Shown in pieces: positions 31,339-44,365 of a stretch of DNA of 64,000 nucleotides; positions within the stretch are counted from its first letter, which is position 1, and the number at the start of each line of letters is the position of its first letter. The DNA is from Gammaproteobacteria bacterium (lineage in GTDB: Bacteria; Pseudomonadota; Gammaproteobacteria; Eutrophobiales; Eutrophobiaceae): NCBI GenBank assembly GCA_028819495.1, contig JAPPLI010000124.1, positions 1-64,000 of the forward strand. The letters are read 5' to 3'. Both the position numbers and the translations under genes were made by a program. The notes under the pieces were generated by a model. It had not been told where the DNA came from and did not search any database. It saw nothing but the letters and a program-made list of their open reading frames with translations.

Positions 31339-31401
31339 CCAGTAAAAAACTTATTCCTTATTTTAACAAAGTCATCCACTTCATATTTGAATGTGACTGA
31401 A

Positions 31402-34400
31402 ATGACGGGCCAACTGTTCAAACAATACTTTTTGACTGATGGTATCCGGGAGACCCCGCAGTGGCGGGAGTCTATGAAACACGCGGAGACGTTTACGAAG
31501 TTTGTTGACGCAATTTCCACCTGTTTCAATAAATTCAGCTATTTCAACAATCCTAATGAAGCAGTCACGGAAAAGGAACTCATTTGCCCAATGTTGGATG
31601 CGCTGGGATGGACCGACTATCTGCCGCAACAGGGATCAACCCGCAAGGAAGACATCCCTGATCATTTGTTGTTTGCTGATGCCGAAGCCCTGAAACGGGC
31701 CATCGCACGCGGTACATCGAAAGATCGTTATAGAGACGCACTATTGGTACAGGAGAGTAAACGATTTGCCCGGTCTCTCGATAACCGGGAAGAGGGCGAC
31801 AAGATACAGGAAGGTACTCCCCATGGGCAGATACTACGCTACCTCTCAACCGCCGATATTGTCTCAGAGGGAAACATTCGCTGGGGCATTCTTACCAATG
31901 GTAGTGTCTGGCGGCTATATGACCAGCGTGCCCGGCCTCGCTCTACTGGCTTTTTTGAAATCGACCTCCAGGGTTTCCTGAATGAAGATAATGAAGACGG
32001 GTTGAGAACGTTTTTCCTCTTATTTCGCCGCGAAGCACTTGTGCTTGGTCAGGGCGCAACGTCTACTTTTCTTGAAACTGCGCTCGCGGAAGGCCGGCGC
32101 TACGAAGAAAAGGTCACCCAAGACCTTTCCAGTGTAGTTTTTGACCGTGTATTTCCCAAAGTCGTCACAGCGCTTGCAAACACTGCCGGAGCCAGCCTGC
32201 CAGAGGTTCGCTCCGCCGCGTTGATCTTCCTGTACAGGGTGTTATTCATCCTGTATGCCGAGGACCGTGGTCTGCTACCCGTTAATGACCTTCGATATGA
32301 TGACTACGGCCTGCGTAAGCGTGTTCGTGACGACATTGCGCAGAGGACGGCGCAGAATGACGTTTTTTCAGGGATGGCAGCCAACTACTACAATCGCCTG
32401 TTGCAGCTTTTCAGACTTATCGACAAAGGTGACGCGTCAATCGGCTTGCCTCCTTATAACGGTGGTCTGTTCGCATCCACGGCCGCGCCGCTCCTTGAAA
32501 ATGTAAGTCTGTCGGATGCGGTAATCGCCGATATTATCCATGACCTGAGCCATGCTGAAAGCGGTAGTGAACGCCGCTTCGTTAATTATCGGGATATGTC
32601 CGTACAACAACTGGGGTCGCTCTATGAAAGGTTGCTGGAACGCGAACCGGTACGAGCAGCAGACGGCAGCGTGTCTGTGCGTCCCAATCCTTACGTGCGC
32701 AAGGACAGCGGCAGCTTCTACACACCACAGGAACTGGTTGACTTGATTGTGGAGCAGACCCTCAAGCCGCTGGCTGAAGAATGTCTGCAAGAGTTTGAAA
32801 AAAGGGCAGAAGCGCTGAAGAGTGACCACCGTCCTAAACCTGAACGACACGCCGAACTCGCCAAACTGGACCCCGCCGTGGCGGTTCTGAACCTTAAAGT
32901 CCTGGACCCCGCTATGGGTAGCGGTCACTTTCTCGTCACTGCGGTGGATTTCCTGTCAGATTACATTGCCAACCTGATCGAGTATGTGCCCATAGTGCCG
33001 GAGTGGCTCAACGGCGAGTATATATCACCCCTCGTTGAACGAATAGACACAATTCGGACGGATATATTGGACCGGGCTGACAAGTCCCGCTGGGTAATCG
33101 ATAAAGCGCAGTTTACCGACCAGGCCATTATCCGACGTATGGTGTTGAAACGCTGTATCTACGGTGTGGACAAGAACCCACTGACTGTGGAACTGGCCAA
33201 AGTATCCTTATGGCTGCACAGTTTCACCGTAGGAGCCCCGTTGTCGTTCCTGGACCACCATCTGCGTTGTGGCGACTCATTGCTCGGCCTTCAAATCAAA
33301 GACGCCAATGAAGAGTTGTACAGGCTTGGCACACTGTTTGTTTCCAGCGCTATCCAGGGCGCGGAGAACGCGGCCGCAGGCATGCAACTCATCGAGGAGA
33401 TGTCGGACACAGACATATCAGAGGTGCAGCAATCGATTGACCTGTTCAGTGGTGTTGAAGAAACTACGTCCGTATTACGCGGATTTCTGGATTTTGTATG
33501 CGGGTTGCGTTGGTTGACTTCGGGCATGGGCAAATCAGAACGAATGAAATTTGAGCTCCCCATTAACCAGGTATTGGAAGCTGACCCGGATAAAGCCTAC
33601 CAGTTGTTATCCTGCGGTCCAGCCAGCGCAGAGGAAAAAACCTCCCCTTTTGGCGTCTTGTGGAATCAAGCTGTTTCCATAGCAAGGCGGGAAAGCTTCC
33701 TGCATTGGCAGGTTGCTTTCCCCGGCGTTTGGAAACATTGGCAGGAGCGGAATCCTCAAGGAGGATTTGACGCTGTCATCGGTAATCCGCCCTGGGACCG
33801 AATCAAGCTGCAAGAAGTGGAGTGGTTTGCGACTCGCGCCCCAGATATTGCGCGCTTTCCGGCCGCCGTACAGCGAAAGAAAGCGATAAAAGAATTACGT
33901 GAACAGGGGGACCCGTTAGCGGACGAATTCGATACGGCAAAAAACCGCGCCGACGAACTGGGCGTGATGATTCGTAAATCGGATCATTATCCCCTGTTGA
34001 GCGGTGGTGATATAAACCTTTACTCCCTGTTTGTAGAAAGGGCAATGACCCTGATCAAACCGGATGGTCTGGTTGGACTGCTTACGCCCTCAGGTATCTA
34101 TGCCGATTTAACAGCAGCCCGGTTCTTCAGGTCTGTTTCTACGAATGGGCAAGTTGCCGGTTTGTTCGACTTCGAAAACCGCCGTTTGGAAACTGGTCTG
34201 CCTCCGTTTTTCCCTGACGTAGATTCTCGTTTCAAATTCTGTGCCCTGATATTCAGCGGTAAGGAGCGGACTTTTGAAGAGACCCGTTGTGGTTTTTTTC
34301 TTGGCAGAGCCAGCACAATCAGTGACCCGGACCGCTGTTTCCCACTGTCACCTGGGGATTATGCTCGCGTAAACCCCAACACCGGCACTGCGCCGGTTTT

Positions 34401-35576
34401 TCGCTCGCGTCGCGATGCTGAAGTAACCCGCCGTATCTATGAGTGTCATCCCGTTCTGGTTGACAGGTCGTCAGGCAAGGAAGTCAAGGCATGGCCGGTT
34501 AAGTACATGACCATGTTTCACATGACCAATGACTCCCACCTGTTTCGTACACGCGAAGAACTTGAAGAGAAGGAAGGTGCGTATCCTATCGGTGGCAATC
34601 GCTTTAACAGTCCGGAAGGGGAGTGGGCGCCACTTTATGAAGGCAAGATGGTGCAGGCTTTCGATCATCGTGCAGCCAGCGTGGTGGTTAATCCGGCCAA
34701 TTTGAACAGGCCGGCACAGCCCGTATCGGCTACTTTGGAACAACATCAGGACCCGGATTGGCTGCCAGACCCGCAGTTTTGGGTATTGGCGTCGGAGTGC
34801 TACTGGCAAGCTGAGCAAAAATGGGTGCTAGGCTTTAAGGAAATTACCGCGTCCACCAATATCAGAACGTTCATTGCATCACTTTTTCCTGCCGTCGGAT
34901 TCGGTAATAAAAGGAACCTCTAAAAATGCCCTCCGTGGCATTTTTAGAGACGGAAACGGAAAAGTGCGATTTTCCGTTTCCTTCATTTTCAATCACTTAC
35001 GTGATTAAAAATGGCAGCATATCCTTATGCTGCACGGGCGCCTCTAATTTTTAGAGGTGCCCTAAAGTGCCAATTCTAAAACCTGAAACAGGTGTCCGTA
35101 ATGAATGGCTGTTGGCTGCTAATTTCAATTCAATTGTCTTTGATTTTACGGCTCGGCAAAAAATTCAAGGCCAGACATTGAACCTGTTTATTGTCGAACA
35201 ACTTCCAGTCATCGCGCCGGACGACTATGACAAACGGTTTGGTGAAGCAACTGCATATGACATCATCCGTGACCATGTGTTACGTCTTACCTACACCTCC
35301 GGTGATATGGCCCCCTTTGCCCGCGATATCGGTTACGACGGCCCTCCATTTATTTGGGATGAAGAGGAACGCGGACACCTGCGAGCCCGGCTTGATGCTT
35401 TGTACTTCCACCTGTACGGCCTGACTCGGGAAGACGCAAGTTACTTGCTGGACACTTTTCCCATCGTCCGTAGGGAAGATGAAGTAAGGTTTGGCAGTTA
35501 CCGCACTAAAGCCCTTGTTCTGGCATACATGAACGCACTGGCGGCTGGTGATACTGAAACCGTGGTAGTGTTATAG
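31402..35576 (+). pseudogene. Type IIG-like restriction-methylase, disrupted by a 151-bp element
   Basis: The frame opens near 31387 (TTG; ATG at 31402) and runs to 34911, is broken by the element at 34912-35062, then continues from GTG 35067 to the stop at 35576. Removing the element and one TAAA copy rejoins the frame exactly and would give about 1340 residues. The N-terminal part has a nuclease-like pattern (KEDIPDHLLF then LLVQESKRFARSLD). The methylase core has SFYTPQELVDLIVEQTLKPL, LDPAMGSGHFLVTAVDFLSD, GVDKNPLTVELAKVSLWLHS and the catalytic DAVIGNPPWDRIK (N6-adenine type). The C-terminal region may hold target recognition. As it stands the product ends 4 residues after the insertion (RNL plus a stop within them) and lacks about 170 residues. 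Confidence 0.8.
34912..35062. mobile_element. MITE-like multi-hairpin element (family A) inserted in a restriction gene
   Basis: 151 bases bounded by TAAA on both sides (34908-34911 and 35063-35066). The ends are AGGAACCTCTAAAAAT and its imperfect complement ATTTTTAGAGGTGCCC. Inside are successive hairpins: AAAAATGCCCTCCGTGGCAT closing on TTTTTA; GGAAACGGAAAAGTGCGATT closing on TTCCGTTTCC; a TTTTCAATCAC/GTGATTAAAAA pair; and GCAGCATATCCTTATGCTGC. The order and the TGCGATTTT loop match the 7371-7520 copy although the arms differ. It carries no ORF. Confidence 0.75.
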
Positions 35577-36290: not shown

Positions 36291-36677
36291 TTATAGGGCA
36301 ATTACTCTCAGAAATCTCCGAGTCTGTGGAGACACGTATAATCCATTTTGTACCCGTTTTAACAATTCATCAGGCAGTGGCTCATGCGGAGTGAATAATG
36401 AGGCACTGACTTTTTGAATTAAACTTTCTTCCCTGTCTACCCTGGCATGTCTGTACGCAATATAACTTCGTTGTTTAACAAACGGATGGCTTCCTGGTTC
36501 CAGTATGCACGTTTTGTCATACGGCGCTTTTCTTACACTGCTTACATTAACCAAAACTGATGAGTTTATATGCCCGGCAAAGTCTTTCGGTTCATTCAGT
36601 ATGATGAAGAGGTGTTTTCCTCTCGGACCGGAGGGAATGATTAATGTACCTCCTGGTATGCAGGTCCATTTGCCCAT
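36291..36677 (-). CDS. Putative toxin paired with Panacea antitoxin (PemK/MazF-like beta-rich protein)
   Basis: 128 residues. GGTLIIPSGPRGKHLFIILN, SSVLVNVSSVR and CILEPGSHPFVKQRSYIAYR give a beta-rich layout reminiscent of the PemK/MazF SH3-like fold, in which short strands surround an early glycine-proline loop. It lies 26 bases after the Panacea-domain gene in the same direction. Panacea (DUF4065) proteins neutralise many unrelated toxin folds, so the neighbour is the expected toxin. The family call is tentative and no catalytic residues can be named. Confidence 0.5.
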   Translation of the reverse strand: MGKWTCIPGGTLIIPSGPRGKHLFIILNEPKDFAGHINSSVLVNVSSVRKAPYDKTCILEPGSHPFVKQRSYIAYRHARVDREESLIQKVSASLFTPHEPLPDELLKRVQNGLYVSPQTRRFLRVIAL

Positions 36678-36703
36678 ATCCTGCTCGAACTGACTTAATC
36701 TGA

Positions 36704-37276
36704 TTAATGGCTCGTTGTCGCAGAACTGAACATTTTGTCCAGTTCCTCTTCATCGCGCATCCTCTGTTCGAGTTCCCTGACAACCTCAGGTTTGTACCCG
36801 ACACAATTTAATACCCTGCTGTATGGGATGAGTTGCGATGTATCTCCGGGGTCTTCCCACTCCGGGCAAATCTTATGTGTAATGTCGCGGAGCTTGTACT
36901 TGCTGTATTGACCGAACTTGCCCCATATGAAATCAAGAATTTCCATATCTGCGTCACTTAATTGCGTCAACTGATCGGCGGGGTCGTGTGCCGGCTGTAA
37001 TCCAAGCTGGTGTCCGGCCCTGGCGCTGACCCAGCTTTCCCACCCTCCTTCTTCTGAATCTGTGAAACCATTAATATGATCCAGCGTTTTTGATAATACC
37101 GGACCATGCTTCATGGAAACCAGGACATCACCTATTATAGGTTCCCCATACCTGGCAAGAGATTCGCGCTCTGCTAGGTACATTAACTTCATGAGTTTTA
37201 ATATTTCGATTGTGCCGCCGGCGCGGGAAATAAAGAATGCGGCTGTTTGAGCAGCTCGCTGTTCACTATATGACAT
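36704..37276 (-). CDS. Panacea-domain (DUF4065) antitoxin-like protein
   Basis: 190 residues from ATG 37276. The domain starts with AAFFISRAGGTIEILKLMKL and continues MYLAERESLARYGEPIIGDV then MKHGPVLSKTLDHI, the SocA-like/Panacea signature. Panacea proteins act as antitoxins in PanAT systems and are also found in prophages. The C-terminal third is charged. It is the first gene of a four-gene minus-strand operon whose second gene is the probable toxin. A 15-bp perfect palindrome (AGTGAACGGTTCACT) at 37360-37374 upstream is a possible operator. Confidence 0.8.
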   Translation of the reverse strand: MSYSEQRAAQTAAFFISRAGGTIEILKLMKLMYLAERESLARYGEPIIGDVLVSMKHGPVLSKTLDHINGFTDSEEGGWESWVSARAGHQLGLQPAHDPADQLTQLSDADMEILDFIWGKFGQYSKYKLRDITHKICPEWEDPGDTSQLIPYSRVLNCVGYKPEVVRELEQRMRDEEELDKMFSSATTSH

Positions 37277-38071: not shown

Positions 38072-38148
38072 GCGGCTGTAGCTCAGCGGAGCAGAGCGCG
38101 ACCCTGCGAAGGTCGAGGTCACAAGTTCGAATCTTGTCAGTCGCGCCA
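38072..38148 (+). tRNA. tRNA-Arg (GCG)
   Basis: Acceptor GCGGCTG pairs with CAGTCGC (one G-U pair), followed by GCCA. The D arm is GCTC-AGCGGAGCA-GAGC. The anticodon stem CGACC/GGTCG encloses CTGCGAA, anticodon GCG. The usual bacterial tRNA for CGC/CGT has ACG edited to ICG, so a GCG anticodon is unusual for a gammaproteobacterium and points to a foreign origin. The end lies 4 bases from the stop codon of the convergent STAND gene. Confidence 0.8.
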
Positions 38149-38152
38149 ACTT

Positions 38153-41100
38153 CTAAAACTCGCGTTCTTCCCGTATCTGTGCTTCTTCTATTCGGTCGTT
38201 AAGATAATCAATATATTTTCCTAGCCATATTTGAATTTTTGGGGCCGAGATTTCCGACATCCAGCGTCTGGCGGCATCCCGTTTTTTTGACAGGTAGAGG
38301 CTTTCAGATCCACTCCATCCCCCTGTACCAAAATGTCCGCAAAGCCCATCGGCTACGTGTCCACCCTCACAGAATTCTTCGATGAATAAGCGGGTCAGGT
38401 GACCATCTGTTTTGTCCAGGGTCTTTGGCAACGCCTGCTCAATTAAATGGCGCCGATTATCGACGTCTGCTTTAATCCAGTCGATAATATTCTCTGCTGA
38501 CAGGTAGAGGATGGAACCGTGTTCGGGAGTATCATCGAAGCTGACAACATCACCCAACCATGGAATGAGTTCATAATGCTTCTTTGACTCAGATACCAAC
38601 AGGTTGGAGACGATATTCCATGTCTCTTGTGGGTGGTCCTTCGCTATCTCGTCGGCCAACCTGGCAATTCTGCCAAAATTGCTATAACGGGAAAGCCGCC
38701 TTGTATCGGTCGTGATTTCTCTGAACAAGTCCATTTTCCTGTGGGGATATTTCTTGATAAATCCCTTTGCAATCTTATCCCAGTAATACCCATACATTTG
38801 ATCCTGATTATTGTCGGAAGGTATATTACTCAGTACTTTAAAAATCAGATCTTCAGGGAAATCTCCCGTGGAGTCCTCACCAAAATAATAATTATGGACA
38901 TGCTGCATACAAACATTGATTGAGGCGTCGTCAGCATGGCTCACAAGGGCGGTAACGATCTGATGAAATAAATCGCTTGATAAACAGGTCGTTTTCTGTG
39001 TGAAAGCAAACTCCTTGAAAGCCCCTGGCTCTAATTGTTTGTCCTCAAACAAGGCCAGCATATCTCTTATAATTAATTCGGTAAGCTTGGATATACTACC
39101 AATCGCGATCTTGCGCGTCGTTTTATTATGTAATAAACGACGTATCAGGCTTTCATAACGTATGGCATTCAGAGTGCACACACCGGAAAGATAACCACGC
39201 AGGAAACGAGCATTGTTATCAGCACTGCCAGCTTCGATATAATTGATTATCGGTTCATCAAATTTTGTATCAGCCAGCTTCCCGCATTCATACCCCAACG
39301 CCCCCAACAGAAGCCCGGATGCCTGAACCAGTTCTGGTACGTACTCAGAAAATACAGCAAGATTTTTCATGTATTCTTCAGCGAGGTCCCTTACGCGCTT
39401 ATCGAGTAATGTTGCCCGCTGGGATTCTTCGTCACGAAACAGACGGTCTTTTTCCCAATTGGTATACAAAACGTAACGGCAAGTCCTTTCCCATAATGAC
39501 ATGCCTGTTAATAATTTATCCAGTTGCCGGATTCTGGCGAGTATTTTTTTATCAAGGGCATCTTTATCTATCCTGGGTTGTCGAATAACAAATTCGACCA
39601 GTGGCTTACGGTTTATTTCCCTGTCTTCAGCAATCTCGAAGAGTATATCCATTATTTCATCAGCCATCGCTTTGATGCCCACAAAACGACTGGCGGCATT
39701 TATCAATATTTCCGCGATCCGGTTCCGGTCGGTTGCATCAAATCCCTGCATTTCAGCGCGCAGGAAACGTAGTACCTGGCGCCAATAATCAAATAATTGT
39801 CCGTATGTCTTGGGACGCCAGAATTCGATCTCGGGTTTTAGCCCTTGGTACTCGGGGCCAACTAACCGAGAACCTCCGTGAATCTGTAGCCACGCTTCAC
39901 ACATTCCCAATCCAAGGGCGCGGCGACTGGCATCCTTACTCCTTACCAGATCTTCTAAAACAAGAAATCGTTTAGACGGAGGCGCTTGCGTTGTTGCTAA
40001 CTCCCGGATATTGAACAGACCGACCAGGGTCCCTTCGGAGTTATTTGAATTGTCCGCATTTTCCGCCAGCGCCATTGGGATCAATACATGTACCGAGCGG
40101 ACAAACAGTTCATCCCAGACAGCAATCTTTTCCAATGCCCATACAATATCCTGGCGGCCGGTAGTCCAGGCGTACAGTTCCTCATGTGACCATGTCTTGA
40201 TTGTCCTCTCCAACAGGGCCAGTGTCCTTGACGGGTCGGCTTCGGACAGGTATCTCAGAAATCGCATGCCCTCCTCAGATTTCAGGAATCCTTGCTCAGA
40301 AAATGGTCCGGTCGTTGATAAAATCCCTTTGACTACATGTTCTGCCTGCGGCGCCCCCTGAGCGTAAATAAACAGCTCTAAAAACCACCGTCTCATGCTC
40401 TCCGGAACTTTTTCCAGGAAAGGCTTGATTTGAAATACGTGACCATGATTCGACCAGAATTGTGTCCATAAATACACATGTAAGGCCTTTGGCACGATAA
40501 ACAGGGTATGGCGTCCCTGTAGTATGCGTTTGTTCCGATAATGTTGCACGATTTGCTGGAATCGGCCCCAAGTGATAGTTGGGTCAACGTCTTCAATACG
40601 AGCGGCAATAAATTTGGCTTCAGCGCTTACTCGTTCTTCAAAGCCGAATCGCTGAAACAGTGCGATATGATGCAAAACAGTCTTATACTGCCTTGCCTCC
40701 TGGCTGTCTGTTTTTTTGTGGCCGATAATGAAGCGGTCCCAGACAGGGATGTCGGCAGGTGATTTAAGCAAGTCGTCCGGATTACTTTTCAGGTTTTCAC
40801 CAACCAGGTGGGCGACACGAGGAGACCCTTCACACCATTTTGCCCAATTAATTAAATCTGTCTGTTGTTGGAGATATCTGAACAGGATATTTTTGATTTG
40901 CTCTTCTGGAAGTTTGGGACAGTGATATACCCGCATGGCGCTGTCGTAGGTTTCCTCAGGTCCATGGTCAATAGTAATTAATTTAATGCTGCTTCGGCCC
41001 TTAATTGCCGACCAAATCTGCGCCCTGTCACGATTACCACAGTCGTCAATAACCAATGTGACGGAATAGGTTCTGTCAGGCTTCAACAACTCGTTAAATA

Positions 41101-42226
41101 ATTTGCTCTTTTGAAAATCCTCGCCGGTGGGTACATAGACGACTGATGGTCTGATGACATCAACGTCCAGCGTTTCAAGCACTAATCGGGTTTTCCCGAT
41201 TCCCGGTTCACCGATGACACGAACATGCTGAACGGCATTTTCCTGAAGGGCCGCTCTGATGTCCTTGATTAAGGTCTCTCGTTCACTCCCAAGTTCAAAT
41301 ACTCCCTGCATCTGGGCATTGTTTCGCCAGCCTTCGATTGACATAAATCCGCCTTCGTCAAGGCCGACTAAGTCAAGACAGATAGAAGGGTATTTGTCCA
41401 GCTCGCCGACAATCTGCCCCTGTCCGTACACGCGTACTTTTGGATTGGGGTAACCGCATTTATTAAATAAATCTGTCAGAAGTTTGACTACCTCCGTGTG
41501 GTGAGTCGGTAATAAGTCATATCCGAAGGTAACAAGGGCAAAAGTGCCATCCTGTTCGAGGCAGTTTTTTACCTCACTTCCTAGTCGTTGTTTTGACGGT
41601 GTAACGTTCGATTTTCCAAATAATTCTTTCTTTAAGGCGCTGGGTTGCCAGGGTTTAAAATCGTCACCTGTCTTGATTTGATAATACGTGCTGCCTTTTT
41701 CCAACAAAGAACTGGAGACGGGTGAATTTTCCACCTTTGCATCAATACCTCCATCCGGGGCGTTGATGTTGGAAGACAGTACGATGTCTTTTGGCCAAAG
41801 TCCGTTTGCGATAGCTTCACACCGTAACAGTCTGAGAAACAAGTCCGTTCCTTGTTTTGAATCCAACTTGCCCAATTCACCCGGTGCGGGAGCAAAAGTC
41901 GATTGTATGGAAGCAATATTTTGACTACTTAAGACCGGACCTGTGTGAATTTGTACATTCTGTACGCTCAGGGTTACTCGCAGTCCGGCTTTTTTCGCGA
42001 GTGATACAAGAGCATCCAGGCTGAATTTATCCACGCGGTCTTTGAGCAAATCGTTCAGGCGAGGCTGGGTAATACCCAGCATTTCAGCCATTTGAACCTG
42101 TGTCCCGCCGATATGGTTTTGCAGATGTTGCCGCAAGTCCGACATCAATTTGGCGCGTTCGAGTATATCAGAGGATGATTCACGCTTAAGTTTTGCGAAT
42201 TGTTGCTTGATTACAGTATTTGTCAT
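38153..42226 (-). CDS. HTH - Mrr-like nuclease - STAND NTPase fusion (Avs-like)
   Basis: 1357 residues. Residues 25-85 form an XRE-type helix-turn-helix of the kind found in HigA-like antitoxins (GTQVQMAEMLGITQPRLNDL). Residues about 118-200 carry a restriction-like fold with APDGGIDAKVE (158-162) and YYQIKTG (Q183-x-K185), the D...QxK pattern of Mrr nucleases. A P-loop VRVIGEPGIGKTRLVLETL (Walker A 339-346) and TLVIDDCG (Walker B) mark a STAND-type NTPase. The remaining 800 residues are helical and could be a repeat-type sensor. Nuclease-STAND-repeat order is that of antiviral Avs proteins, which cut DNA after sensing phage proteins; the fused HTH suggests autorepression. No early stop or frameshift is seen. 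Function is inferred. Confidence 0.7.
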   Translation of the reverse strand: MTNTVIKQQFAKLKRESSSDILERAKLMSDLRQHLQNHIGGTQVQMAEMLGITQPRLNDLLKDRVDKFSLDALVSLAKKAGLRVTLSVQNVQIHTGPVLSSQNIASIQSTFAPAPGELGKLDSKQGTDLFLRLLRCEAIANGLWPKDIVLSSNINAPDGGIDAKVENSPVSSSLLEKGSTYYQIKTGDDFKPWQPSALKKELFGKSNVTPSKQRLGSEVKNCLEQDGTFALVTFGYDLLPTHHTEVVKLLTDLFNKCGYPNPKVRVYGQGQIVGELDKYPSICLDLVGLDEGGFMSIEGWRNNAQMQGVFELGSERETLIKDIRAALQENAVQHVRVIGEPGIGKTRLVLETLDVDVIRPSVVYVPTGEDFQKSKLFNELLKPDRTYSVTLVIDDCGNRDRAQIWSAIKGRSSIKLITIDHGPEETYDSAMRVYHCPKLPEEQIKNILFRYLQQQTDLINWAKWCEGSPRVAHLVGENLKSNPDDLLKSPADIPVWDRFIIGHKKTDSQEARQYKTVLHHIALFQRFGFEERVSAEAKFIAARIEDVDPTITWGRFQQIVQHYRNKRILQGRHTLFIVPKALHVYLWTQFWSNHGHVFQIKPFLEKVPESMRRWFLELFIYAQGAPQAEHVVKGILSTTGPFSEQGFLKSEEGMRFLRYLSEADPSRTLALLERTIKTWSHEELYAWTTGRQDIVWALEKIAVWDELFVRSVHVLIPMALAENADNSNNSEGTLVGLFNIRELATTQAPPSKRFLVLEDLVRSKDASRRALGLGMCEAWLQIHGGSRLVGPEYQGLKPEIEFWRPKTYGQLFDYWRQVLRFLRAEMQGFDATDRNRIAEILINAASRFVGIKAMADEIMDILFEIAEDREINRKPLVEFVIRQPRIDKDALDKKILARIRQLDKLLTGMSLWERTCRYVLYTNWEKDRLFRDEESQRATLLDKRVRDLAEEYMKNLAVFSEYVPELVQASGLLLGALGYECGKLADTKFDEPIINYIEAGSADNNARFLRGYLSGVCTLNAIRYESLIRRLLHNKTTRKIAIGSISKLTELIIRDMLALFEDKQLEPGAFKEFAFTQKTTCLSSDLFHQIVTALVSHADDASINVCMQHVHNYYFGEDSTGDFPEDLIFKVLSNIPSDNNQDQMYGYYWDKIAKGFIKKYPHRKMDLFREITTDTRRLSRYSNFGRIARLADEIAKDHPQETWNIVSNLLVSESKKHYELIPWLGDVVSFDDTPEHGSILYLSAENIIDWIKADVDNRRHLIEQALPKTLDKTDGHLTRLFIEEFCEGGHVADGLCGHFGTGGWSGSESLYLSKKRDAARRWMSEISAPKIQIWLGKYIDYLNDRIEEAQIREEREF

Positions 42227-42236
42227 ATTTGATTTT

Positions 42237-42277
42237 GTCTAATGATAACAACAAGTCTAATGTTGGTTTATATTATA
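42237..42277 (-). promoter_or_regulatory. Promoter and direct-repeat operator of the STAND gene
   Basis: On the minus strand TATAAT (complement at 42272-42277), with TGTATA 17 bases further upstream, is a plausible promoter. Two identical CATTAGAC boxes (complements GTCTAATG at 42237-42244 and 42255-42262) lie 18 bases apart, between the -10 and the start codon. This is about two helical turns, suiting a dimeric HTH repressor such as the N-terminal domain of the gene itself. The rest of the 42227-42488 intergenic region is AT-rich, with no ORF. Confidence 0.4.
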
Positions 42278-42488
42278 TCAACAATGATATAAAATATACA
42301 CTATAACGGGGATAATTTCATCAATTGCGGTGAAATGGAGGAATTGCCTTGTTATTTCCTTATTTATCTCTATAATGACAAGCAGTTATAGTTTATCTTA
42401 TCGACGACGATTGCGTGAATTTACCAGTCTTTCTCTAAATTTTCACTATTTGATATATTTTCAATAATTATTGATACTATCTATTTTG

Positions 42489-43547
42489 ATGATAAATAAA
42501 GCAATTCAAATTGAAGAAGAAGCTGGGAAAATAGTTTTGTCAGTCTTGCAACGAGTCCCCGGAATTATGGATCTCCGCGTTGAACTGGATCGCTGGATGG
42601 AAAATTATAGTGCCGACCTCCTTGTATCGTTTCGCAAGCAGAACGACAGGAAGACTTTGCTGGTTGAAGTCAAATCATCTGGTCAACCTCGATTAGCGCG
42701 CGTTGCTGTTAACCGGTTACTTCTGCTGCAGCACAAACGACCCCGTGATTATGGTGTATTTGTGGCACCTTATATCTCAGAAAGTTCAGCCGAAATTTGC
42801 AAGAGTAACGGTATCGGCTATATCGATTTTTCCGGCAATTGCTGGCTAAACCTTGATTCGATATACATAGAGATAAAGGGGAATCCGAATCGCTTTTCAA
42901 GGAAAAGTGAATTGAAATCGTTGTTCAAGCCCAGAGCAGAGCGGATACTGAGAGCCATGTTATCCGAGCCTGGATATGAGTGGTCTGCAATGGAACTAGC
43001 GAAATCTGCTGATGTCAGCATCGGCCAGGTATCCAATGTCCGCAAACTATTACTGGAACGTGAATGGATAGAGGATCAGAAAACAGGGACCAAGCTGATT
43101 GAACCTTACCAACTGCTTGCTTCCTGGTTGACCGAATATCGACCTGATAGAAGCAGCATATACGGTCTTTATGATATGGATTCGGTGGGAGATATTGAAT
43201 CGACAATCTCTGGTTTCTGTAAACGTACAGGGACCCGTTATGCATTCACTGGTTTTTCCGGCGCCTCGCGCTACGCTCCGTTTATAACCTACAATACAGT
43301 TGCTGTTTATATGAATATCTCACAAGAAAATATTAGGGAATTGCCATTCAAACCGGTAACATCCGGCGCCAATATCAGGATTATCTCTCCATATGATGAC
43401 GGGGTATTTTACGGAACCCGGAGCATACGGGACCAATCTGTGGTATCACCGGTACAGTGTTACCTTGATCTCAAGGATGAAAAAGCAAGGGGAGAAGAAG
43501 CATCTGAAGCCTTGCTGGAACAGGTGATTAAGCCATCATGGCAGTAA
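42489..43547 (+). CDS. AbiEi-like antitoxin
   Basis: 352 residues from ATG 42489. The N-terminal third has a nuclease-like core pattern (YSADLLVSFR then KTLLVEVKSSGQPRLARVAV), followed by a winged-helix segment (WSAMELAKSADVSIGQVSNV then RKLLLEREWI). This is the layout of type IV toxin-antitoxin AbiEi-family proteins, which repress their own promoter and antagonise the AbiEii nucleotidyltransferase. It overlaps the next gene by 10 bases, the antitoxin-first order. No clear Shine-Dalgarno is seen. Confidence 0.7.
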   Translation: MINKAIQIEEEAGKIVLSVLQRVPGIMDLRVELDRWMENYSADLLVSFRKQNDRKTLLVEVKSSGQPRLARVAVNRLLLLQHKRPRDYGVFVAPYISESSAEICKSNGIGYIDFSGNCWLNLDSIYIEIKGNPNRFSRKSELKSLFKPRAERILRAMLSEPGYEWSAMELAKSADVSIGQVSNVRKLLLEREWIEDQKTGTKLIEPYQLLASWLTEYRPDRSSIYGLYDMDSVGDIESTISGFCKRTGTRYAFTGFSGASRYAPFITYNTVAVYMNISQENIRELPFKPVTSGANIRIISPYDDGVFYGTRSIRDQSVVSPVQCYLDLKDEKARGEEASEALLEQVIKPSWQ

Positions 43548-44365
43548 CGAAGGTTGATTATCCCGAATTGGCAGTCAGGGCAGCGGAGTCGGTGCTGCTG
43601 GAGCTTGTCCGCATTCTTGGTGAATATCTCGATCATATCGTCGTAATCGGCGGTATGGTTCCAAAATATCTGGTGCCCAGCCCCGAGGAAAGGCACATCG
43701 GTTCAATCGACGTTGACCTAGCCCTGGATCATCGCCGTTTCGATGAACCAGGTTATCAAACATTACATAAATTACTTGATGAGCATGATTACCGTATAGA
43801 TGCTAATCACCCATATATATATCGACGAATTTTTCTCATCGATGGCAATGAAATTACCGTTCAGGTCGATTTACTTTCAGGTGAATATGGCGGTACGGGC
43901 AGAAGTCGCAGGACACAAAAGATACAGGATATCCGACCACGTAAGGCTCGTGGCGCTGACATGGCGTTTGATAATCCCGTGCATGTAAAAATTGCCGGAG
44001 AATTACCTGGGGGGGCAAAAGATACTGTCACTATACGTGTTGCAAGCATAGTCCCATTCATCGTGATGAAAGCGATGGCCATGCGGGATCGCCTGAAACA
44101 AAAAGATCCCTATGACATCTATTATTGCCTGAAATACTTTCCGGGTGGAATTGAAGAAATTGCTGAATCATTCAGCTTGTTGAGAAGAAATAAGCTGGTC
44201 GGGGAAGCCTTGGGAATTCTGGCAGAGAAATTTGACTCTCCAGATCATGTCGGCCCTGTTCATGTAACAGAATTTCTTCAAATAACCGACACGTATGAAT
44301 CGGAACTTATACAACGGGATTCCTATGAGAGAGTTCAGTACCTGATAGAAAGTTGTACTGGTTGA
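43538..44365 (+). CDS. AbiEii-like nucleotidyltransferase toxin
   Basis: 275 residues. IVVIGGMVPKYLVPSPEERH followed by GSIDVDLALD is the nucleotidyltransferase motif (glycine pair, then DxD). RASIVPFIVMKAMAMRDRLK-like sequence near residue 170 and KDPYDIYYCLKYF match the AbiEii/DUF1814 C-terminal half. AbiEii-type toxins (e.g. MenA) add nucleotides to tRNA acceptor ends and cause growth arrest or abortive infection. That target is interesting here because a tRNA array lies 5.4 kb away. The pair closes the accessory island. Confidence 0.75.
   Translation: MAVTKVDYPELAVRAAESVLLELVRILGEYLDHIVVIGGMVPKYLVPSPEERHIGSIDVDLALDHRRFDEPGYQTLHKLLDEHDYRIDANHPYIYRRIFLIDGNEITVQVDLLSGEYGGTGRSRRTQKIQDIRPRKARGADMAFDNPVHVKIAGELPGGAKDTVTIRVASIVPFIVMKAMAMRDRLKQKDPYDIYYCLKYFPGGIEEIAESFSLLRRNKLVGEALGILAEKFDSPDHVGPVHVTEFLQITDTYESELIQRDSYERVQYLIESCTG

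Follow-up and report, generated by a model that had tools for sequence, protein, structure and literature searches.

A HigA-type helix-turn-helix domain fused to a PD-Lambda-4_A-like STAND nuclease, and a candidate operator for its own repression

Within a 64,000-nucleotide stretch of DNA from a gammaproteobacterium (GenBank assembly GCA_028819495.1, contig JAPPLI010000124.1, positions 1 to 64,000, forward strand; hereafter the window), we analyzed a large gene whose product joins a helix-turn-helix (HTH) domain to a nuclease and a STAND ATPase. Our preferred interpretation, to which we assign a probability of roughly 0.72, is that this protein is an HTH-fused, PD-Lambda-4_A-like STAND (NLR-like) nuclease immune receptor, the synthesis of which would be held down by its own HTH. 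A role in anti-phage defence is predicted from the homology to PD-Lambda-4_A, the nearby defence genes, the low guanine-cytosine (GC) content, and the proximity to tRNA or transfer-messenger RNA (tmRNA) genes. As regulator, DNA site, and effector here come together in one gene with a conserved and unique operator, this gene and its 18-bp site would be enough for direct tests of how an immune receptor controls itself, which bears on how bacteria prevent NLR-like nucleases from killing them when there is no infection. The features of this gene and its leader, in window coordinates, are the following.

38153..42226, minus strand: HTH-nuclease-STAND gene with a PD-Lambda-4_A-like body (PADLOC PD-Lambda-4_A, E 4.7e-32, residues 117-1098)
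41957..42190, minus strand: HTH_37 (HigA-type) domain, residues 13-90, with recognition helix TQPRLNDLL (Pfam HTH_37, PDB 2a6c)
41372..41893, minus strand: Mrr-like PD-(D/E)XK nuclease domain, residues about 112-285 (invariant D158, D162, Q183, and K185; hhalign to Mrr_cat 90%; alpha/beta order of the model)
41672..41755, minus strand: catalytic stretch D158-GGID162 ... Q183-I-K185 (conservation across homologues)
40367..41329, minus strand: NB-ARC/STAND ATPase module, residues about 300-620 (structure matches; NB-ARC or nSTAND Pfam matches in homologues)
41186..41212, minus strand: Walker A, GEPGIGKTR, residues 339-347 (conserved in homologues)
38156..40366, minus strand: all-helical, repeat-like C-terminus, residues 621-1357 (about 740 residues), presumed sensor (model of residues 300-1357; Foldseek)
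42274..42291, no strand: putative operator palindrome TATATCA-N4-TGATATA (conservation in HTH-fused leaders; single genomic site)
42272..42277, minus strand: -10 box TATAAT with TG extension, starting within the operator's right arm (leader comparison)

Domain architecture and relation to known systems

The 1357-residue protein is encoded by a single open frame (42226..38153, minus strand) without an internal stop, and the whole-genome copy of the contig is likewise free of stops. At its N-terminus, where an earlier note on this DNA had placed a HigA-type HTH, residues 15-88 match Pfam HTH_37 (E 8.6e-13; 48.4 bits against a curated cut-off of 27) and residues 23-90 match PDB entry 2a6c (E 2.7e-11); Pfam also gives a weak AAA_16 match on the fused protein. 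Residues D158, G159, G160, D162, Q183, and K185 in the nuclease region are invariant in 35 homologues, bacterial and archaeal, as likewise are G339, G342, G344, K345, and D394 (Walker B) in the ATPase. No direct Pfam Mrr_cat match was obtained for the fused protein or for any family member searched, nor did the nuclease profile give a significant match to PDB sequences. A profile-profile alignment (hhalign) of the nuclease region with Mrr_cat, however, reached 90% probability over 115 columns and placed DGGID...QIK on the Mrr catalytic stretch, as compared with 0.1% for the ATPase region of the same protein used as a control, and on this basis we consider the label Mrr-like to be fair. DUF4365, also considered as the nuclease family, was set aside as the weaker match (58.6%, 38 columns, catalytic stretch alone).

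Two AlphaFold2 models were prepared, one of residues 1-640 (mean predicted local distance difference test score, pLDDT, of 82.5) and another of residues 300-1357 (mean pLDDT of 85.3), with two alignment rows from annotated plasmid records omitted from the modelling alignments. Here, the helix-strand order in the first model follows that of the PD-(D/E)XK core, with D162 opening one strand and QIK closing the next, and the protein thus displays the conserved D...(D/E/Q)xK in an alpha-beta-beta-beta-alpha-beta core by which PD-(D/E)XK or Mrr-like nucleases are recognized. Moreover, it has the NB-ARC/STAND nucleotide-binding module with Walker A and B that characterizes STAND ATPases. The ATPase part of the first model matches Apaf-1, CED-4, plant NRC resistosomes, Avs5 (9jap, Z 12.0), and Avs3 (8dgc), and that of the second (about 300-613) matches NB-ARC/STAND chains (Apaf-1 and NRC resistosomes) with Z about 14 over about 263-285 residues; clamp loaders and Clp ATPases also match at Z about 11-13, as expected of AAA+ relatives. 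Beyond about residue 613, the C-terminus is modelled entirely as helix, and its Foldseek matches are helical-repeat proteins in general. Accordingly, the D...QxK nuclease motif at 158-185, the Walker A/B motifs at 339-395 in a STAND setting, and the helical C-terminus that the earlier note had read are all borne out; the searches with Avs and Mrr profiles and the structure prediction that it had proposed brought up neither a missing nuclease core nor a missing STAND architecture, either of which it had named as fatal to its idea.

The sole PADLOC match of the protein is PDLC03991 (PD-Lambda-4_A), which aligns positions 10-1014 of its 1283 with residues 117-1098 at the E value listed above. Canonical protein A, as found in locus L064 (1284 residues), has the same domain order and is homologous over the nuclease, the ATPase, and part of the C-terminus, though it has protein B after it and no HTH, whereas in the window an HTH has been added. 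With the AVAST (Avs1-5) profiles of PADLOC, there was no match at E values up to 1. Avs1-5 are defined by a C-terminus that recognizes phage terminase or portal. The Avs-like designation of the earlier note is therefore kept for the common logic of a nuclease or other effector, a STAND ATPase, and a large C-terminus, to which the structural matches with Avs5 and Avs3 belong, and is given up for membership in Avs1-5, from which the fused protein also differs by its N-terminal antitoxin-type HTH. The PD-Lambda systems of Escherichia coli were selected for anti-phage activity (Vassallo et al., 2022; PMC9519451); in a review, a P-loop NTPase is given for PD-Lambda-4 (PMC10952713).

Distribution of the fusion and its putative operator

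Scanning 84,980 species genomes for homologues yielded 41 loci, 7 of which carry the HTH in frame, so that with the window there are eight independent HTH-bearing homologues. The seven are from Nitrospirota (L069, L070, and L076), Gammaproteobacteria (L071, L072, and L074), and Desulfobulbaceae (L073), with L072 being the same contig as G017, a genome from the window's own genus. One further locus (L075) is truncated at its 5' end, and the remaining 33, archaeal ones among them, start at the nuclease; the same holds for homologues on plasmids of Pseudanabaena and haloarchaea. When only the body was used for a tree, one fully supported clade united the eight HTH-fused sequences with the 5'-cut L075, while 34 further homologues on it, some of them archaeal, start at the nuclease. 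The fusion claimed in the earlier note is real and, judged from this tree, arose once for the HigA-type HTH, and the assembly error weighed there as an alternative is ruled out by the recurrence in seven other sequences. An HTH as a separate neighbouring gene was not seen in the 33 HTH-less loci, save for one weak HTH match downstream in L102. No description of such an HTH-nuclease-STAND fusion was found in the openly accessible literature, subscription papers being outside the search.

As the members of the clade are spread over three phyla, the gene evidently moves horizontally. The copy in the window has a GC content of 46%, compared with 57-60% for the nearby core genes nhaA and mutS and a similarly low 44-45% for the neighbouring AbiE pair described below, and it adjoins a tRNA array ending at 38148; likewise, L072 lies beside a tmRNA gene and L073 beside a tRNA-Pro gene. 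A phage origin was considered and rejected, since no homologue was found in the phage records searched and the IMG/VR contigs give only two, with N-termini that lack an HTH. As a separate observation, two archaeal loci (L061:7950-11748 and L106:7968-11879) have the body split into two genes, one for a nuclease/ATPase of 353-394 residues and another for a C-terminal part of 864-914 residues.

With one mismatch allowed, the palindrome TATATCA-N4-TGATATA is present in all seven testable leaders of HTH-fused genes; with two allowed, it is still missing from all 32 leaders of homologues without the HTH. In fact, the 4.97-Mb genome of the window contains just one site with no more than one mismatch, namely that in the leader of the fused gene itself. 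The right arm of the palindrome leads into a -10 hexamer (TATAAT or TATAAA) in 7/7 leaders, with a TG before the hexamer in six, and three leaders also have, at 18 bp, a -35-like hexamer matching in 4 or 5 of 6 positions; in addition, the leaders of L073 and L074 contain a second, weaker copy of the palindrome. Autorepression by the fused HTH is, by inference from these comparisons, well supported. The earlier note had already proposed autorepression, though it assigned the role to two CATTAGAC boxes. Both boxes are indeed there, at 42237 and 42255. However, dinucleotide shuffling of the leader in the window produced a directly repeated 8-mer within 30 nucleotides in 86 of 300 trials, and the box is absent from every other HTH-fused leader compared; we therefore discarded the boxes, which are probably due to chance, as the operator, and it is the palindrome over the -10 box that takes their place in the proposal.

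An independent test set was available in 38 stand-alone HTH_37 genes with enough upstream DNA, obtained as side hits. TATATC-N6-GATATA (at most two mismatches) occurs upstream of 16 of these, as against 0.77 expected, and mostly lies about 400-470 nucleotides from the HTH gene. In both cases checked, the gene in between is of the HigB family (Pfam Gp49), which puts the palindrome at the promoter end of a HigBA operon. All seven stand-alone genes with a perfect site encode a TQPR[LI]ND recognition helix like the TQPRLNDLL of the window, and several genes with an SQPRVSDL helix have instead TATATAAA...TTTATATA-like sites, a comparison made post hoc. Across loci L007-L058, helix variants thus seem to be paired with operator variants (TQPR[LI]ND with TATATC...GATATA, and SQPRVSDL with TATATAAA...TTTATATA), and a specificity code between recognition helix and operator is possible among HigA antitoxins. 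As stand-alone HigA loci with the same helix also have the palindrome, the fused HTH, which is up to 52% identical to stand-alone antitoxins, appears to retain the site preference of its parent antitoxins. Unlike in HigBA, however, the HTH is here joined to a 1250-residue nuclease-STAND body, and a HigB-like gene had no match in the window or in six fused loci.

The AbiE-type pair, the HipB-type fusion, and competing explanations

Upstream of the fused gene, and divergent from it, is a pair of genes resembling an AbiE type IV toxin-antitoxin system.

42471..43547, plus strand: AbiEi_2-type antitoxin/regulator, probable ATG start at 42489 (Pfam AbiEi_2, E 1.5e-9, over the cut-off)
43538..44365, plus strand: AbiEii-like nucleotidyltransferase, toxin candidate (Pfam AbiEii, E 7e-4, 20.0 bits, below the cut-off of 22.5)
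42461..42474, no strand: TCAATAATTATTGA, a second palindrome, close to where AbiEi starts and possibly its operator (TTCAA-N6-TTGAA-related repeats in the other four AbiEi-bearing loci)

On plasmids, the genes next to AbiEi relatives are annotated as AbiEii/AbiGii. The pair stands beside the fused gene in five of the seven testable loci, with the order in L069, L070, L072, and L076 as in the window and both proteins 64-73% identical, and it is absent from L073 and L074 (the two deepest branches) and from all 33 HTH-less loci. It is a frequent, not an obligate, companion of the fused gene, and the simplest history suggested by its absence from these loci is that the fusion came first and the pair later. 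While AbiE elsewhere is a free-standing pair, here its intergenic region is common to the fused gene in 5/7 loci. The TTCAA-N6-TTGAA-type palindrome may be the operator of AbiEi itself. In L069, L070, and L076, the intergenic region upstream of the fused gene has an extra conserved paired TTGTTGTT...GATGAACAA element besides both palindromes.

A different antitoxin-type HTH is found on a homologue in G281 (L068), where a 1573-residue protein with the same body has an HTH_3 domain inside about 310 extra N-terminal residues and is encoded directly after hipA; indeed, hipA overlaps the gene for HTH_3, about 250 residues, and the nuclease-STAND part (L068:4787-10653). In G547, the 310-residue HTH protein has a gene of its own, which follows a hipA gene with 60% identity to that of G281. 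From these arrangements, a HipB-type partner appears to have been joined independently to a PD-Lambda-4-like body, in a single genome so far. Apart from this, genes for a HigB toxin and a HigA-M78 peptidase lie directly upstream of the nearest HTH-less homologue (L077:6400-11738), a layout resembling the HigB and Xre-peptidase arrangement described for PD-Lambda-2.

As we picture the self-repressed receptor, an HTH dimer would occupy TATATCA-N4-TGATATA and block RNA polymerase, so keeping a dangerous nuclease scarce. By comparison with known families, the helical C-terminus would sense an infection signal, the ATPase would then drive oligomer formation, and the clustered nuclease domains would cut DNA, with phage or cell being stopped. 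More speculatively, oligomer formation might pull the HTH off the operator, and activation would then also raise synthesis. The main target of the HTH would be the fused gene itself, since the operator is kept in members without the AbiE pair. Several points weigh against the receptor interpretation. That protein and operator are conserved together is, taken alone, no proof of binding, and two further antitoxins with a TQPRLND helix have no palindrome. The HTH portion of the model has low confidence (pLDDT 34-74), and its assignment is based on sequence. Moreover, identity to canonical PD-Lambda-4_A is only about 24%, and the 4.97-Mb genome gives no match to the profile of protein B (PDLC03992, 303 residues), although this profile does pick up B next to A in L064; without B, this is not a complete PD-Lambda-4 system.

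Other explanations deal differently with the same architecture. MalT and AfsR, like the fused protein, carry a STAND ATPase along with a DNA-binding domain; they have no nuclease and are activators of metabolic or antibiotic genes. An ATP-dependent transcription factor of this kind, in which the STAND module gates the HTH, the divergent AbiE-type operon is the output, and the nuclease is secondary or dead, would suit the common intergenic region, the divergent order conserved in five loci, and the fact that work on bacterial STAND proteins has mostly dealt with them as transcriptional regulators (PMC7159879). We nonetheless regard it as unlikely, as the catalytic residues are invariant, even in HTH-less homologues that could not regulate in this way, and the operator lies on the -10 box of the fused gene and is kept in L073 and L074, where the AbiE pair is missing. 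The HTH could alternatively be a true antitoxin that inactivates the fused nuclease as its 'toxin' at the protein level, with the AbiE pair in the same addiction or abortive-infection module. Such a captured toxin-antitoxin circuit would account for a HigA-type HTH at loci where HigB is missing, as though the toxin had given way to the body, and it draws on the HipB-type HTH fused beside HipA and the HigB-HigA operon just upstream of L077. That most homologues lack an antitoxin HTH, however, implies that the body is tolerated without one, and no extension for toxin binding is recognized on the HTH, which is the part that binds DNA; we find this account improbable. Very improbable indeed is a restriction-like, site-specific enzyme whose HTH guides the nuclease to operator-bearing DNA: although the two domains are adjacent in one chain, the sole genomic operator is in the gene's own leader, and targeting would therefore cut the gene itself, while there is no companion methylase that all loci keep next to the fused gene.

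A broader proposal, which we consider doubtful, extends the self-repressed receptor in two ways: an antitoxin-type HTH would have been put on a STAND nuclease receptor more than once by fusion (HigA-type here, and HipB-type with HipA in G281), and receptor assembly would also free the receptor's own promoter, perhaps together with the promoter region common to AbiE, making one protein a self-amplifying switch. If true, the repeated recruitment of antitoxin HTHs would join the fields of toxin-antitoxin control and STAND immunity.

Surrounding genes

Methyltransferase and toxin-antitoxin genes are found near the fused gene. A Type IIG/PglX-DrmMI-like methyltransferase of 1178 residues is encoded at 31387-35576 (plus strand), and this gene looks interrupted, as the C-terminal end of its PADLOC profile is matched by the next open reading frame (35067-35576). 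A SocA/Panacea-type antitoxin gene (Pfam E 3.4e-26) lies at 36704-37276 (minus strand), and just downstream of it, within 36291-37276 (minus strand), a gene for 128 residues is a candidate toxin partner. In the Nitrospirota loci L069 (12091-16182) and L076 (12103-15848), the fused gene is followed by Type I methyltransferase and specificity genes, a defence-island setting.

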